Origin: an uncultured Agathobaculum sp.
Lineage (GTDB): Bacteria; Bacillota; Clostridia; Oscillospirales; Butyricicoccaceae
NCBI RefSeq assembly: GCF_944384735.1
Contig: NZ_CALWUN010000013.1
Span: 1-41,861 of the forward strand
Reading direction: 5' to 3'
Length of the DNA stretch: 41,861 bases
In this document: piece by piece, positions 8,637 to 13,019 of the stretch
Layout of the letters: each line of letters begins with the position of its first letter
How positions within the stretch are numbered: the stretch's first letter is position 1
Translations under genes and position numbers: made by a program
Notes under the pieces: generated by a model
What the model saw: only the letters and a program-made list of their open reading frames with translations
Databases searched by the model: none
Told to the model about the DNA's origin: nothing

Positions 8637-8843
8637 ATGCTGTCCAAACGATATGCCCGCCCCGACCGTGCGCGCTGCGTCTCCTGCGGCGCGTGCATGC
8701 ACGAATGCCCGCGCGACGCCATCCGTATCCATCACGGCTGCTATGCCGTCGTCGACACGCTGCAATGCGTCGGCTGCGGCAAATGCGCCAAGGTCTGCCC
8801 GGCGGACTGCATCGCCATCCTTGACCGGGAGGTGCAGGCATGA
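8637..8843 (+). CDS. 2[4Fe-4S] ferredoxin
   Basis: This 68-residue protein has two CxxCxxCxxxCP cluster motifs (CVSCGACMHECP and CVGCGKCAKVCP), the classical clostridial dicluster ferredoxin fold, with a short basic N-terminus. The start is ATG 8637, with GGAGG at about 8627. The stop overlaps the start of the next gene (ATGA), so the two are translationally coupled. It probably passes low-potential electrons to the membrane Fe-S protein encoded next. An oxygen- or redox-responsive Crp/Fnr-type control is suggested by the upstream dyad. Confidence 0.92.
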   Translation: MLSKRYARPDRARCVSCGACMHECPRDAIRIHHGCYAVVDTLQCVGCGKCAKVCPADCIAILDREVQA

Positions 8844-9424
8844 ACAAGCGCAAGCATTGGTACGACTATCTGTGGCTGTGGTCAGTCCTGTTTTTCGCGC
8901 TCGGCTTTTTCAATATCCTGTTCGCGTGGCTGGGCATGCTGGACTTCGGCCTGCCGCTGCTGTTTGCCATCTTTGGCGGCAACAAATTCTTCTGCAACAA
9001 CCTGTGCGGCCGCGGCCAGCTGTTCACACTGCTGGGCGGGCGCTTGGGTCTGTCGCGCGGCAAGCCCGCACCGCGCTGGCTGGGTTCCAAACCGTTCCGC
9101 TACGGCTTCCTCGTCTTTTTCATGGCGATGTTCGGCAATATGCTGTTCCAGACGTATCTGGTCGGCGCGGGCGCGGCCTCGCTGCGCGAGGCTGTCAAGC
9201 TGTTCTGGACGTTCCGCGTGCCGTGGGGCTGGGCGTACACCGCGGGCGCCGTGCCCGCGTGGGTCGCGCAGTTCAGCTTCGGTTTTTACAGCCTGATGCT
9301 GACCTCGCTGCTGATCGGCCTGATCGTCATGGCGCTCTACCGCCCGCGCACCTGGTGCTCGTTCTGCCCGATGGGCTGCATGACGCAGGGCGTGTGCCAG
9401 CTGCGGCAGCACGGCAAGGGATAA
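8840..9424 (+). CDS. membrane 4Fe-4S protein, NapH/YccM-like
   Basis: The 194-residue protein has about four hydrophobic segments (about residues 12-45, 87-108, 130-150 and 153-172). Two Cys-rich loops are present: FFCNNLCGRGQL near 50-61 and RTWCSFCPMGCMTQ near 171-184, the pattern of the polyferredoxin-type membrane electron-transfer proteins (NapH family), although each motif has fewer than the usual four cysteines. It follows the ferredoxin with a four-base overlap, so the pair is probably one redox module moving electrons to or from the membrane. The terminal acceptor is not encoded nearby. A strong terminator separates it from the reductase operon downstream, so a link to bilirubin reduction is only speculation. 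Confidence 0.8.
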   Translation: MNKRKHWYDYLWLWSVLFFALGFFNILFAWLGMLDFGLPLLFAIFGGNKFFCNNLCGRGQLFTLLGGRLGLSRGKPAPRWLGSKPFRYGFLVFFMAMFGNMLFQTYLVGAGAASLREAVKLFWTFRVPWGWAYTAGAVPAWVAQFSFGFYSLMLTSLLIGLIVMALYRPRTWCSFCPMGCMTQGVCQLRQHGKG

Positions 9425-9429
9425 GCGAT

Positions 9430-9468
9430 ACCGTGCGGGAAACCATCCGGTTTTCCGCACGGTTTTTC
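9430..9468 (+). terminator. terminator after the ferredoxin pair
   Basis: ACCGTGCGG at 9430-9438 pairs with CCGCACGGT at 9455-9463, extended by a GAAAC/GTTTT inner stem, and is followed by TTTTCTGTTTTT. A stem of about 14 bp with a good T tract makes it a strong intrinsic terminator. Confidence 0.88.
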
Positions 9469-9513: not shown

Positions 9514-9556
9514 CTTGACTATGTCAAGCTTCCGTCTTATACTTGACAAAGTCAAG
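9514..9556 (+). promoter_or_regulatory. bilQRS promoter with two identical palindromic operators
   Basis: The promoter is TTGACT (9515-9520)-N17-TATACT (9538-9543). The palindrome CTTGAC-TAT-GTCAAG (9514-9528) covers the -35 and CTTGAC-AAA-GTCAAG (9542-9556) covers the end of the -10 and the start site; they are 28 bp apart. Repressor bound at either would block polymerase, so autorepression by the MarR-type product, relieved by a ligand, is the natural reading. Confidence 0.85.
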
Positions 9557-9571
9557 AAAGGAAGTGCCCCC

Positions 9572-10000
9572 ATGCTCAATACCCTCGCCTACCACGCCAC
9601 CATATTGTACCGCAGCTTTTCAGCCCACACCGGCCGCGTGCTCGACACGCTCGGCCTGAGTCAGGGACTGCTGTACCCGATTTTATACGTCGGGCGGCAC
9701 CCGGGCTGCACGCAGGCCGAACTGACCGAGGCGCTCGGGCTGGACTGGGGCTACTGCCAGCGCAGCGTGCTGCGGCTGGCCGAGGACGGATTCCTCGTCC
9801 GCGAAAAACAGGGCCGCGCCTACCGCCTGTCGCTCAGCGACAAGGGCGCGCAGGCGTTCGAGGCCAGCCATCAGGTCTTTTTTGACTGGGACGCCCAGAC
9901 GCTGGACGGCCTGACCGAAGCAGAACGCGCGCAGCTGCTCCAGCTGCTCGGCAAGATCAAACCAAAGGAAGCGAACACCAAGCTATGTACGAGACGATAA
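9572..10000 (+). CDS. bilQ: MarR-family regulator BilQ
   Basis: This 142-residue winged-helix protein is the first gene of the operon. The start is ATG 9572, with AAAGGAAG nine bases upstream. The helix-turn-helix is visible at HPGCTQAELTEALGLDWGYCQRSVLRLAEDGFL (about residues 46-78), followed by the wing VREKQGRAYRLSLSDKG. Family members are dimers that release palindromic DNA on binding a small ligand. Two identical 15-bp palindromes lie over its own promoter. Gene order regulator-reductase-flavodoxin matches the bilQRS operons reported from gut Clostridia, which is why I use that name. The inducer would plausibly be bilirubin or a related tetrapyrrole, which is inference. Its end overlaps the next gene by 16 bases. 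Confidence 0.82.
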   Translation: MLNTLAYHATILYRSFSAHTGRVLDTLGLSQGLLYPILYVGRHPGCTQAELTEALGLDWGYCQRSVLRLAEDGFLVREKQGRAYRLSLSDKGAQAFEASHQVFFDWDAQTLDGLTEAERAQLLQLLGKIKPKEANTKLCTRR

Positions 10001-11097
10001 CCAGCCCGGTCAATTACGGCGGGCTGCAACTGAAAAACCGCATCATTTTCGCGCCGACCTCGATGGGGCTGCGCGGCGACGACCTGATCGAGCGCTACCG
10101 CGCAATCGCCCGCGGCGGCTGCGCGATGATCATTCTGGGCGACGTGCCGGTCGGCAAACACGGCTTTGCACCCACGCTGTACACCAAAAAGGGCTTTGCC
10201 TTTTACCGGCGCATCGCCGAAGCGATCCACGCCGAGGGCTGTCTGGTTTGCGCCCAGCTGCACCAGTCGGACTCTAACGTCAAAGCGATGCTGAAATACG
10301 TCCCCGGCATGCTGGCCAAAAAGATCAGCCCGGCCGACCTGCGGCCGCTGCTCAACCAGCAGGTCGGGCCGTATATCACGGGCATGCCGGTCAAAAAAAT
10401 ACACGAGATCACCGAAAACTTCGGCTTTGCGGCCGTGCTCGCCCGCAAGGCAGGCTTCGACATGATGCAGATCCACGGCGACCGCATGTGCGGCAGCTTT
10501 TCGTCGACCGTGTACAACCGCCGCACCGACGACTACGGCGGCACCCCGCAGAACCGCGCGCGCTTTGCCGTTGAAGCGGTGCGCGCCGTGCGCCGCCGCC
10601 TGCCCGACATGCCGATCGACTATAAGCTGGCCGTGCGGCAGGAAAACCCGCACTATGGCAACGCCGGCGTGCTGCGCGAGGAGCTGAACGTCTTCGTGCC
10701 GCTGCTTGAGCAGGCGGGCGTGACCAGCTTCCATGTAACGCTTGCCAACCACGGCGAGCTGACCGACACCATCCCGCCTGCAAATCACCCGGCGTTTGCC
10801 GCCGAGGGCTGCTTCCTGCCGTTCTGCGACGAAGTACGGAAGCTGACAAAGCTGCCCCTCTGCGGCGTCGGCGGGCTGACGCAGCCCGCTTTTGTCGAGC
10901 AGCAGCTCGCCTCCGGCCGCATCGACTGCGCCGCCATGAGCCGCCAGCTGATCGCCGACCCGGACTGGCCGGACAAGGTTATGTTCGGCCGGGCAAACGA
11001 AATCCATCGCTGCGTGCGCTGCAACAAGAAATGTCTGGGCGGCATGATGGCGCACCAGGGCGTACACTGCATTTATGAAAAGGAGAATGACGCATGA
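9985..11097 (+). CDS. bilR: bilirubin reductase BilR (Old Yellow Enzyme family, short form)
   Basis: This 370-residue TIM-barrel flavoenzyme is predicted to reduce bilirubin to urobilinogen in the cytoplasm. The N-terminal FMN strand NRIIFAPTSM (18-27) and the barrel motif FSSTVYNRRTDDYGG (172-186) define the Old Yellow Enzyme family. The signature HGDR lies at residues 164-167; Asp166 and Arg167 are, as I recall, the residues reported as essential and diagnostic for bilirubin reductases. The C-terminus has a cluster motif C343-x2-C346-x3-C350-x11-C362, as in 2,4-dienoyl-CoA reductases, but the FAD/NAD(P)H domain that follows in those enzymes is absent. The neighbouring flavodoxin would supply electrons instead. 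The ATG at 9985 lies inside bilQ, so translation is coupled. A different enone substrate is the main alternative. Confidence 0.85.
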   Translation: MYETITSPVNYGGLQLKNRIIFAPTSMGLRGDDLIERYRAIARGGCAMIILGDVPVGKHGFAPTLYTKKGFAFYRRIAEAIHAEGCLVCAQLHQSDSNVKAMLKYVPGMLAKKISPADLRPLLNQQVGPYITGMPVKKIHEITENFGFAAVLARKAGFDMMQIHGDRMCGSFSSTVYNRRTDDYGGTPQNRARFAVEAVRAVRRRLPDMPIDYKLAVRQENPHYGNAGVLREELNVFVPLLEQAGVTSFHVTLANHGELTDTIPPANHPAFAAEGCFLPFCDEVRKLTKLPLCGVGGLTQPAFVEQQLASGRIDCAAMSRQLIADPDWPDKVMFGRANEIHRCVRCNKKCLGGMMAHQGVHCIYEKENDA

Positions 11098-11579
11098 CTT
11101 ACGCGATCGTATACAGCAGCAAGACCGGCAACACCCGCCTGCTGGCCGAAGCCATCCGCGACGCGCTGCCCGCGGCCGACTGCCTGTACTTTGGCGCGCC
11201 GGACGACGCGGCGCTCGCGGCCGACCGCATCTATGCCGGCTTCTGGACGGACAAGGGCACCTGCGACGCGGACACCGCAGCCTTTCTATCCCGTCTGACG
11301 GGGCAGCAGATATTCCTGTTCGGCACGGCGGGCTTTGGCGGCGCGCCCGCGTACTTCGATAAAATCCTGACCGCCGCGCGGCAAAACCTGCCGGACGGCG
11401 TGACCGTGTGCGGCAGCTACATGTGTCAGGGCAAAATGCCCGCCGCCGTCCGCGCACGCTATGAGCAGATGGAGGACAGCCCGCGCCGTCAGATGATGCT
11501 GGACAACTTCGATGCCGCGCTGTCCCACCCCGACCAGACCGATCTGGCGCGCCTGCGGGACGCGGTGTGCGCGCGCTGA
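11094..11579 (+). CDS. bilS: flavodoxin-like protein BilS
   Basis: This 161-residue flavodoxin-fold protein has the FMN phosphate loop YSSKTGNTR (residues 7-15) near its N-terminus and a second flavin-binding loop around GTAGFGGAP (about 77-85). The start ATG at 11094 overlaps the bilR stop by four bases (ATGA) and has AAGGAG upstream. It is the third gene of the operon, the position of bilS in reported bilQRS loci. Because BilR here lacks its own NAD(P)H domain, this protein is the likely electron carrier that reduces the FMN/Fe-S centre of BilR. Its own reductase is not in the window. A large hairpin terminator lies about 95 bases downstream. Confidence 0.85.
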   Translation: MTYAIVYSSKTGNTRLLAEAIRDALPAADCLYFGAPDDAALAADRIYAGFWTDKGTCDADTAAFLSRLTGQQIFLFGTAGFGGAPAYFDKILTAARQNLPDGVTVCGSYMCQGKMPAAVRARYEQMEDSPRRQMMLDNFDAALSHPDQTDLARLRDAVCAR

Positions 11580-11672
11580 CCCCCCTGTCCGTGCCATGTC
11601 CGGCGACTTCCTCCGCCGGACACGCGCACCGCGCGCCCCGTGGACACGCATTAAACCCTATATCAGCTGGCA

Positions 11673-11736
11673 GCAGCGCTCCCACAGGGCCGGTTCCTAC
11701 CGGCTCACGCGGGGGCGCTGCGCCTTTTGTCCCTGT
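11673..11736 (+). terminator. terminator of the bilQRS operon
   Basis: GCAGCGCTCCC (11673-11683) pairs with GGGGGCGCTGC (11711-11721), and an inner GCCGGT/ACCGGC stem makes it a long hairpin; CCTTTTGTCCCTGTT follows. The region 11580-11975 otherwise contains only the next promoter and a leader of about 140 bases. Confidence 0.7.
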
Positions 11737-11975: not shown

Positions 11976-13019
11976 TTGAGTAACAAAATAGACGTCCGCA
12001 AAGCTGCGCTGAAAGACAAACACCGAAAGGAAAACGCGCTCTGGCGCGTCCTGCTGGCATGCCTTTCGGACATTGCCAAAATGGAACCGTGGGATAAGCT
12101 CACCCACGAGATCCCGCTCGCGTACATCCCGAAAAGCGACGACCAGATGATCTTTTTCTCCTGCGTGCGGGAGTCGGAGCATTCCATGGGGATTTTCATT
12201 TATCCGACCCCGCGGGATTACCAATACGGCACCCTAGCACAGGAAAACGACCGGGAGGAAGCCCGGCAATTCATCGAAATGGAATGCTTTACCGCCGCCT
12301 TTACCACCAAGGACGAGGTGCCGGAGGAGGTCCTGCGGGTTTACCAGCGTTTGGCCGTGGACTTCGGGGACGGCTTATGGCCATGGGTCAGCCACAAGCG
12401 GTACGGCTATCTGGATGAAACGCCGCACGCGGACGATCTGGCGTTTGCGTTGGACGCCCTCGGCAATTTCCACATGCAGCTATGCGCACTGAAGGAGACC
12501 AACGCCGTGCCGGATTACGACAAGGGCGAAATGCTGCTCCGGTACTATTCCCCGGAGGACGACCTGTGGTACAATGTCATCGCGCCGTTCGCGCTGCCGC
12601 CCGAGGTCAGCTCCGCATTCATCACGCTGAAAGATTCGCCGCTGATACTGGAGCTGTCCCAGCTGCCCGCGTCTACCGACATCCCCCGGATGGAACTGGA
12701 CTACGGCTGGCTGGACGAGCCGGTGCAGGATAAGGCGAACGACGTGCCCTATTTCCCGATGCATCTTGTTGTGTCCGACCGTCTGAACGACCAGCAGCTG
12801 AGCCTTTATCACTGCCGGCCGGAGGACTTCATCGGCTGTGCGCTCACCGCGTTGGCCGATGCGCTGCGCAAGCACGGCCTGCCGGAAACGCTGTACGTCT
12901 GCCGCGACGAAAGCTATGACCTGCTGGAGGATCTGACGCGCAAGCTGGGGATCCATCTCAAGCGCGTCAAGCATCTGCCGGCAGCGGAGCGCGTCCTGCG
13001 GTCGCTGGACGCCGTTTGA
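11976..13019 (+). CDS. conserved-looking protein of unknown function
   Basis: I do not recognise this 347-residue protein with confidence; the C-terminal part (LRKHGLPETLYVCRDESYDLLEDLTRKLGIHLKRVKHLPA, about residues 289-328) recalls uncharacterised Bacillota proteins of the DUF6930/DUF7309 type. It is soluble, acidic, Trp-rich and has no signal peptide or membrane segment. The start is the TTG at 11976, seven bases after GAGGAGG (11962-11968). An ATG at 11971 opens a two-codon frame (ATG TTT TGA) overlapping it, which could couple or damp initiation. It is a single-gene unit with its own promoter and terminator. No neighbour explains its function. Confidence 0.7.
   Translation: MSNKIDVRKAALKDKHRKENALWRVLLACLSDIAKMEPWDKLTHEIPLAYIPKSDDQMIFFSCVRESEHSMGIFIYPTPRDYQYGTLAQENDREEARQFIEMECFTAAFTTKDEVPEEVLRVYQRLAVDFGDGLWPWVSHKRYGYLDETPHADDLAFALDALGNFHMQLCALKETNAVPDYDKGEMLLRYYSPEDDLWYNVIAPFALPPEVSSAFITLKDSPLILELSQLPASTDIPRMELDYGWLDEPVQDKANDVPYFPMHLVVSDRLNDQQLSLYHCRPEDFIGCALTALADALRKHGLPETLYVCRDESYDLLEDLTRKLGIHLKRVKHLPAAERVLRSLDAV

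Follow-up and report, generated by a model that had tools for sequence, protein, structure and literature searches.

A bilQRS operon, preceded by a closely spaced pair of palindromes that very probably forms the operator of its own regulator BilQ, lies in a 41,861-nucleotide (nt) stretch of DNA from an uncultured Agathobaculum sp. (NCBI RefSeq assembly GCF_944384735.1, contig NZ_CALWUN010000013.1, positions 1 to 41,861 of the forward strand), the whole of which we call the window. We propose that BilQ would repress the operon through the two palindromes and that the flavodoxin BilS would feed electrons to the reductase BilR, with divinyl-urobilinogen the likely product; we put the probability of this joint explanation at roughly 87%. 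According to the available text of PMC10769871, bilirubin reduction by gut bacteria affects the reabsorption of bilirubin and hence jaundice. The bilQRS operon itself is already known and the window copy adds a member to an established group. With the enzymes known, the conserved operator pair makes their regulation directly testable, and in particular the question of which pigment BilQ senses. Because the control of bile-pigment reduction becomes testable in this way, we give the pair, and the regulon to which it leads, more weight than the operon alone. The pair also represents a short DNA signature of BilQ-controlled promoters. A bile-pigment reporter could be built on it, and it draws attention to a membrane protein as a new candidate component. 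In the open-licence literature searched (titles and shown abstracts) we found no description of a BilQ site and nothing on the timing or switching of bilirubin-reduction genes. PMC10769871 is the one paper in that literature where BilQ occurs together with MarR and bilirubin; its available text mentions bilQ twice, as a gene name, and the word bilirubin is not present in that of the flavodoxin paper PMC10913485.

The operon consists of three overlapping genes on the forward strand: bilQ (9572-10000), for a MarR-family regulator of 142 amino acids; bilR (9985-11097), for a short-form bilirubin reductase of the Old Yellow Enzyme (OYE) family, 370 amino acids in length; and bilS (11094-11579), for a flavodoxin of 161 amino acids that also matches Pfam Flavodoxin_3. 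The first two genes overlap by 16 nt, and bilS, beside bilR, overlaps it by 4 nt (ATGA). Each protein exceeds the cut-off of the NCBIfam curated equivalog model for its name, with 149.0 bits against 125 for BilQ (NF045593), 553.2 against 425 for BilR (NF045592), which is far above chance, and 218.8 against 155 for BilS (NF045594). These scores bear out the first-pass annotation of this DNA, in which co-directional MarR regulator, OYE and flavodoxin genes had been named bilQ, bilR and bilS from their order and overlaps. The limits it had given to the operon, 9514 and 11736, do not hold. The former is that of a longer frame, which opens with a TTG at 9515, and positions 9514-9571 are promoter and non-coding, because the BilQ model aligns from residue 3 of the 142-residue form starting at ATG 9572; the stop codon of bilS lies at 11579. 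By its family scores, the operon is the bilQRS of a gut-type bacterium, the nearest relatives of which are Agathobaculum species.

The same annotation had read the operon as one for the reduction of bilirubin to urobilinogen, and of this the bilQRS names stood whereas the urobilinogen endpoint did not. Urobilinogen had been given as the product in the available text of PMC10769871; in a 2026 preprint (PMC13252198), BilR is reported to reduce methine bridges only, yielding divinyl-urobilinogen, with reduction of the vinyl groups requiring BilV, which is of the OYE family like BilR but has an AHAH motif. No BilV or second full OYE was seen above the Pfam PF00724 cut-off, other than BilR, in the window's genome, which is 83% complete; a fragment of an OYE there reaches 20.6 bits against a cut-off of 27. 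As BilR is reported to act on methine bridges only and no BilV is seen, divinyl-urobilinogen is the likelier end product, and full reduction to urobilinogen by this genome appears doubtful. The preprint also records bilV in 0.4% of bilR-short species. An OYE from another genome of the window's family (locus L022 of genome G028), used in our outgroup, has a frame of 668 amino acids and AAHAHG where BilR has HGDR, and it may be BilV-like since AHAH is given as the BilV motif in PMC13252198.

It is possible, though on the doubtful side, that these are true bilQRS homologues with biliverdin or some other bilin, and not bilirubin, as their main substrate in nature. The idea arises because short-form BilR dominates in the guts of birds, where biliverdin is the main pigment: PMC13252198 reports that bilR-short accounts for 71-89% of bilR in avian metagenomes and that biliverdin is a substrate of the Clostridioides difficile BilR-S, and several of the nearest relatives of the window carry poultry-type names (merdavium, pullicola, merdipullorum). 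Against it, the BilRS proteins of both Clostridium symbiosum and C. difficile reduce bilirubin too, according to the available text of PMC10769871, in which the C. symbiosum strains assayed, WAL-14163 and WAL-14673, reduced bilirubin and the expression of bilRS in Escherichia coli was enough for its reduction. The C. symbiosum operon described there has the same genes in the same order, with a short HGDR-bearing BilR that is 64% identical to that of the window.

The distal palindrome of the candidate BilQ operator, CTTGACTATGTCAAG (9514-9528, forward strand), lies over the -35 element of the bilQ promoter, while the proximal one, CTTGACAAAGTCAAG (9542-9556, forward strand), has two bases in common with the -10 element. 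Both are perfect 15-nt palindromes that match the consensus CTTGACnnnRTCAAG exactly and are conserved before bilQ, and their starts are 28 nt apart. The promoter itself (9515-9543, forward strand) is sigma-70-like and agrees with the consensus at 10 of 12 positions, with a -35 element TTGACT at 9515-9520, a 17-nt spacer and a -10 element TATACT at 9538-9543. MarR-family autorepressors with palindromic operators are known and, as in those systems, the palindromes here overlap a sigma-70-like promoter that would drive the operon of the regulator itself. Unlike MarR autorepressors generally, the BilQ loci have a close pair of CTTGACnnnRTCAAG sites, and no site with up to two mismatches was found in 27 other MarR promoters, from loci that score under the BilQ cut-off.

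In the mechanism that we envisage, BilQ dimers would bind both palindromes, one over the -35 element and one touching the -10 element, and would thereby repress their own operon until released by a bile pigment (bilirubin, biliverdin or a product) or by some other signal. BilS, the probable electron carrier, would then pass electrons to BilR, an Fe-S and flavin mononucleotide (FMN) reductase that itself has no flavin adenine dinucleotide (FAD)/NAD(P)H domain. BilQ could conceivably act as an activator or a dual regulator instead of a repressor, as some MarR proteins do, and one of its sites does lie at the -35 element; the overlap of the sites with the -35 element and the end of the -10 element would, however, be suited to blocking the polymerase, and we consider activation unlikely.

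The conservation of the pair was examined in relatives from a named-species genome scan, which gave 127, the best 80 of which were kept. In 72 of these 80 named loci, bilQ immediately precedes bilR and the upstream DNA suffices; those left out are L066 (bilQ on the opposite strand, 3.6 kilobases (kb) off), L100 (too little upstream DNA) and L071, L084, L122, L123, L125 and L129 (no bilQ in the locus). Five extra regions, L001, L010, L012, L019 and L028, were scanned outside the 72. A pair is taken as two sites 27-29 nt apart, with a mismatch limit for each site, and is present before bilQ in 43 of the 72 regions at zero mismatches, in 51 at up to one and in 60 at up to two per site. Its placement relative to the promoter is similarly regular: the spacer is of 17 nt in 53, and the -10 element reads TATACT in 50, of the 60 named loci with a pair. 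No pair arose in 100 dinucleotide-preserving shuffles of the 72-region set, and a motif-free search returned CTTGAC as the only arm of a perfect 6-3-6 palindrome common to more than one region (56 of 72). C. symbiosum ATCC 14940 (L126) has the pair before bilQ too, with sites 27 nt apart and one mismatch in each, in comparison to the perfect sites, 28 nt apart, of the window, which comes from an Agathobaculum relative.

Several observations weigh against the joint explanation. At up to two mismatches, 12 of the 72 regions have no pair, 10 of them having one site and two having none, and 26 of 80 bilR genomes are without the exact-core pair. Three BilQ-adjacent promoters of a genus of the window's own family (g4) carry a single site with one mismatch, and in G386, a genome with both BilQ and BilR over their cut-offs, the pair is degenerate and its sites are 31 nt apart. 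The TTGAC of the -35 element lies within the motif, so that its conservation is in part that of a promoter; a promoter would not account for the conservation of the TCAAG arm. With regard to electron supply, tblastn found no BilS in 11 of the 80 named loci (L102 ends right after bilR), from which it follows that BilS is not the sole possible donor.

Whole genomes were searched as well. Of 87 from the window's family, eight have the exact-core pair, at one place in each, and these are exactly the eight, out of 25 in the window's genus, that carry a short-form bilR (G000, G006, G007, G009, G010, G015, G016 and G018; Fisher p = 9e-7). A class-wide draw of 391 genomes gave the exact-core pair in two, both with BilQ over its cut-off, and a reversed control pattern in one. 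Among the 80 bilR genomes, 54 have the exact-core pair, at 58 places, and none has the control pattern. Fifty-four of these places are inside bil loci (53 loci), with 49 before bilQ-bilR, four before bilR and one before the detached bilQ of L066; 53 of the 58 thus immediately precede either bilQ-bilR or a bilR with bilQ elsewhere. No exact-core pair is present in bilR genomes that lack BilQ, G439 of the class draw among them. With two mismatches allowed, no site is seen in L153 or in those bilR loci of the family where searches found no BilQ (L011, L013, L014, L016 and L018); L015 has one poor site match. The window's genome has no second exact-core pair. It does contain two more exact single sites, both within long open frames.

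The natural REARRANGEMENTS set comprises seven named loci where bilR has no bilQ next to it and the upstream DNA is long enough. In five of these (L066, L071, L084, L123 and L125, the last with the order bilS-bilR and one mismatch in the pair) the pair is found at the bilR(S) promoter, and all five genomes encode a BilQ over the cut-off at another place. In L066 it is 3.6 kb distant and on the opposite strand; in the remaining four it lies on a different contig or a long way off. Before these detached bilQ genes there is a full pair in L165, L166 and L167 and one exact site in L168 and L169, whereas none of four further MarR genes from those genome searches (L170-L173) has a site. The remaining two loci, L122 and L129, have no site at up to one mismatch, and their genomes no BilQ over the cut-off; that of L129 has a match of 62 bits, below it. 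We take the pair for the BilQ operator because it accompanies bilQ and bilR(S) but not the other MarR genes examined. The assignment to BilQ is read from sequence, and several MarR proteins bind TTGA-type palindromes, so the pair might be a real operator of some different regulator. This we judge very unlikely, given that the five rearranged loci with a pair all have BilQ elsewhere and the two without BilQ over the cut-off lack the pair, that the site is absent from all 27 other MarR promoters and that the pair is missing where, in the window's family, a bilR locus has no BilQ beside it.

The features that the first-pass annotation had ascribed to BilR are all present. HGDR occupies residues 164-167, with D166 and R167 in agreement with the available text of PMC10769871, and is invariant in alignments of 11 and of 12 BilR sequences; it occurs in 80 of the 80 named loci and in none of eight outgroup OYEs, which have HGAHG-like motifs instead. 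The four cysteines of the cluster motif (C343, C346, C350 and C362) are invariant in 12 aligned sequences, and the FAD/NAD(P)H domain is indeed missing, the sole Pfam match being Oxidored_FMN at residues 7-338 of 370. By analogy with its family, the protein would carry FMN and Fe-S cofactors. It is of the short form, without the C-terminal flavodoxin-like and NAD(P)H domains of the long BilR of Ruminococcus gnavus, with which, according to PMC13252198 and the available text of PMC10769871, it shares the OYE family and HGDR. Its predicted fold (predicted local distance difference test score, pLDDT, 76.6) is an OYE barrel, with best matches to 6qkg and 1ps9.

The profile search and tree that had been suggested as a check on BilR place it over the BilR model and in a cluster with the BilR of C. 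symbiosum ATCC 14940 (L126; not one of the assayed WAL strains), away from the eight other OYEs, which are non-HGDR proteins of the window's own family. The tree holds 97 of 98 rows, the broken bilR of L136 being too short to include. The window BilR sits among Agathobaculum copies, at 89% identity to the nearest, and these are also its closest relatives among the best 80 of the 127 from the named-species scan. The tree is weak on deeper order, because bootstrap values are unsettled, some branches are long and two long-form HGDR proteins fall on the outgroup side of the midpoint root. The OYE fold is common to the window BilR, 2,4-dienoyl-CoA reductase (1ps9), 2-naphthoyl-CoA reductase (6qkg) and BaiCD, and 1ps9 comes first among sequence matches in the Protein Data Bank (PDB) and second among fold matches; nevertheless, it is barely credible that BilR is an ordinary reductase of enones, of bile acids (like BaiCD) or of 2,4-dienoyl-CoA, for it lacks the C-terminal FAD/NAD domain of these enzymes, reaches 155.7 of the 825 bits required for BaiCD but 553.2, with 425 required, for bilirubin reductase, and has HGDR in the position of the HGAHG-like motifs of the outgroup. 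On family scores, motif and tree position we rejected 2,4-dienoyl-CoA, BaiCD and other enone reductases as its identity.

The five of the 58 pair places that remain are all associated with an unannotated membrane protein of about 108 amino acids. In the genomes of L066, L071 and L084 the pair precedes the detached bilQ, which is followed by the gene for this protein, while in G722 and G729 the pair is directly upstream of the gene, with site starts 67 and 95 nt before the start codon in G722 and 128 and 156 nt before it in G729. No bilQ, bilR or bilS was found by tblastn within the 11 kb fetched from either genome. Operator-associated copies are at L222:5444-5770 and L223:4837-5163, both on the reverse strand, and in the detached-bilQ loci L165, L166 and L167; within bil operons the gene lies 3' of bilR in L097 (6123-6449) and L113 (6155-6481), in which no BilS was found, and 3' of bilS in L089 (6659-6985) and L121 (6647-6970). 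Nine copies align with 37 invariant columns of 109, and the protein is predicted to form four helices (pLDDT 77.3; predicted template modelling score 0.58). It has no Pfam match and chance-level matches only in NCBIfam and among PDB sequences, and a fold search gave no solved structure at E <= 0.001. It is absent from the window, which was the part of this genome searched for it.

Its position gives good support to the view that this membrane protein belongs to the operator-pair regulon; a role with bilins would be a guess. In G313, a BilQ over the cut-off lies behind an operator pair (L152:6074-7119) in a two-gene unit with a protein of 183 amino acids (P0004), and no bilR match is found in that genome at E <= 1e-80. 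P0004 has no Pfam, NCBIfam or PDB match, and the idea that it is a CpcT/CpeT bilin lyase was dropped, Pfam giving it no support. Matches to it occur in three of 200 genomes, G313 included, and the two homologues have no site at up to one mismatch within their 3.5-kb loci. We offer tentatively, as a possibility somewhat short of even, that BilQ may be the sensor of a bile-pigment regulon that extends beyond bilQRS to the G313 protein and to a bilin-handling membrane protein, with a part in uptake, export or anchoring of the reductase.

The patchy occurrence of short-form bilR within the genus (8 of 25 genomes, some of them incomplete) suggests its loss or transfer there. In one of the eight, G006 (Candidatus Agathobaculum intestinipullorum), the bilR match stops at position 274 and the remainder is in another frame; in both loci from this genome, L017 and L136, bilR occupies two frames, whereas the matches to bilQ and bilS are nearly full-length and the operator pair is perfect, decay and assembly error being both possible. 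Likewise, L018 has bilR matches in two frames and L019 has bilR only from residue 179, as broken or misassembled copies.

The window is a contig of a 2.06-Mb assembly in 94 contigs, in which bilQRS lies between a terminator-like hairpin (9430-9463, forward strand; a 15-pair stem followed by a T run) and a gene with no assigned function that starts at 11976. The hairpin and a weak terminator-like site 3' of bilS (11708-11722, forward strand) are consensus matches only. Amongst frames of at least 80 amino acids in the 80 named loci, the only conserved neighbours are bilQ, bilR and bilS and the frames that overlap them, the next clusters being found in 9 of the 80 at scattered positions. Upstream of the operon, on the same strand, are genes for a two-cluster ferredoxin (8637-8843) and a Fer4_5 membrane protein (8840-9424). 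They were rejected as members of the operon, since the hairpin intervenes. In 57 loci with short flanks, tblastn found the Fer4_5 gene only in the window's own copies (L001 and L029) and in L007, L009 and L017, and it is possible that in the window the ferredoxin and Fer4_5 protein are an electron source for the operon.

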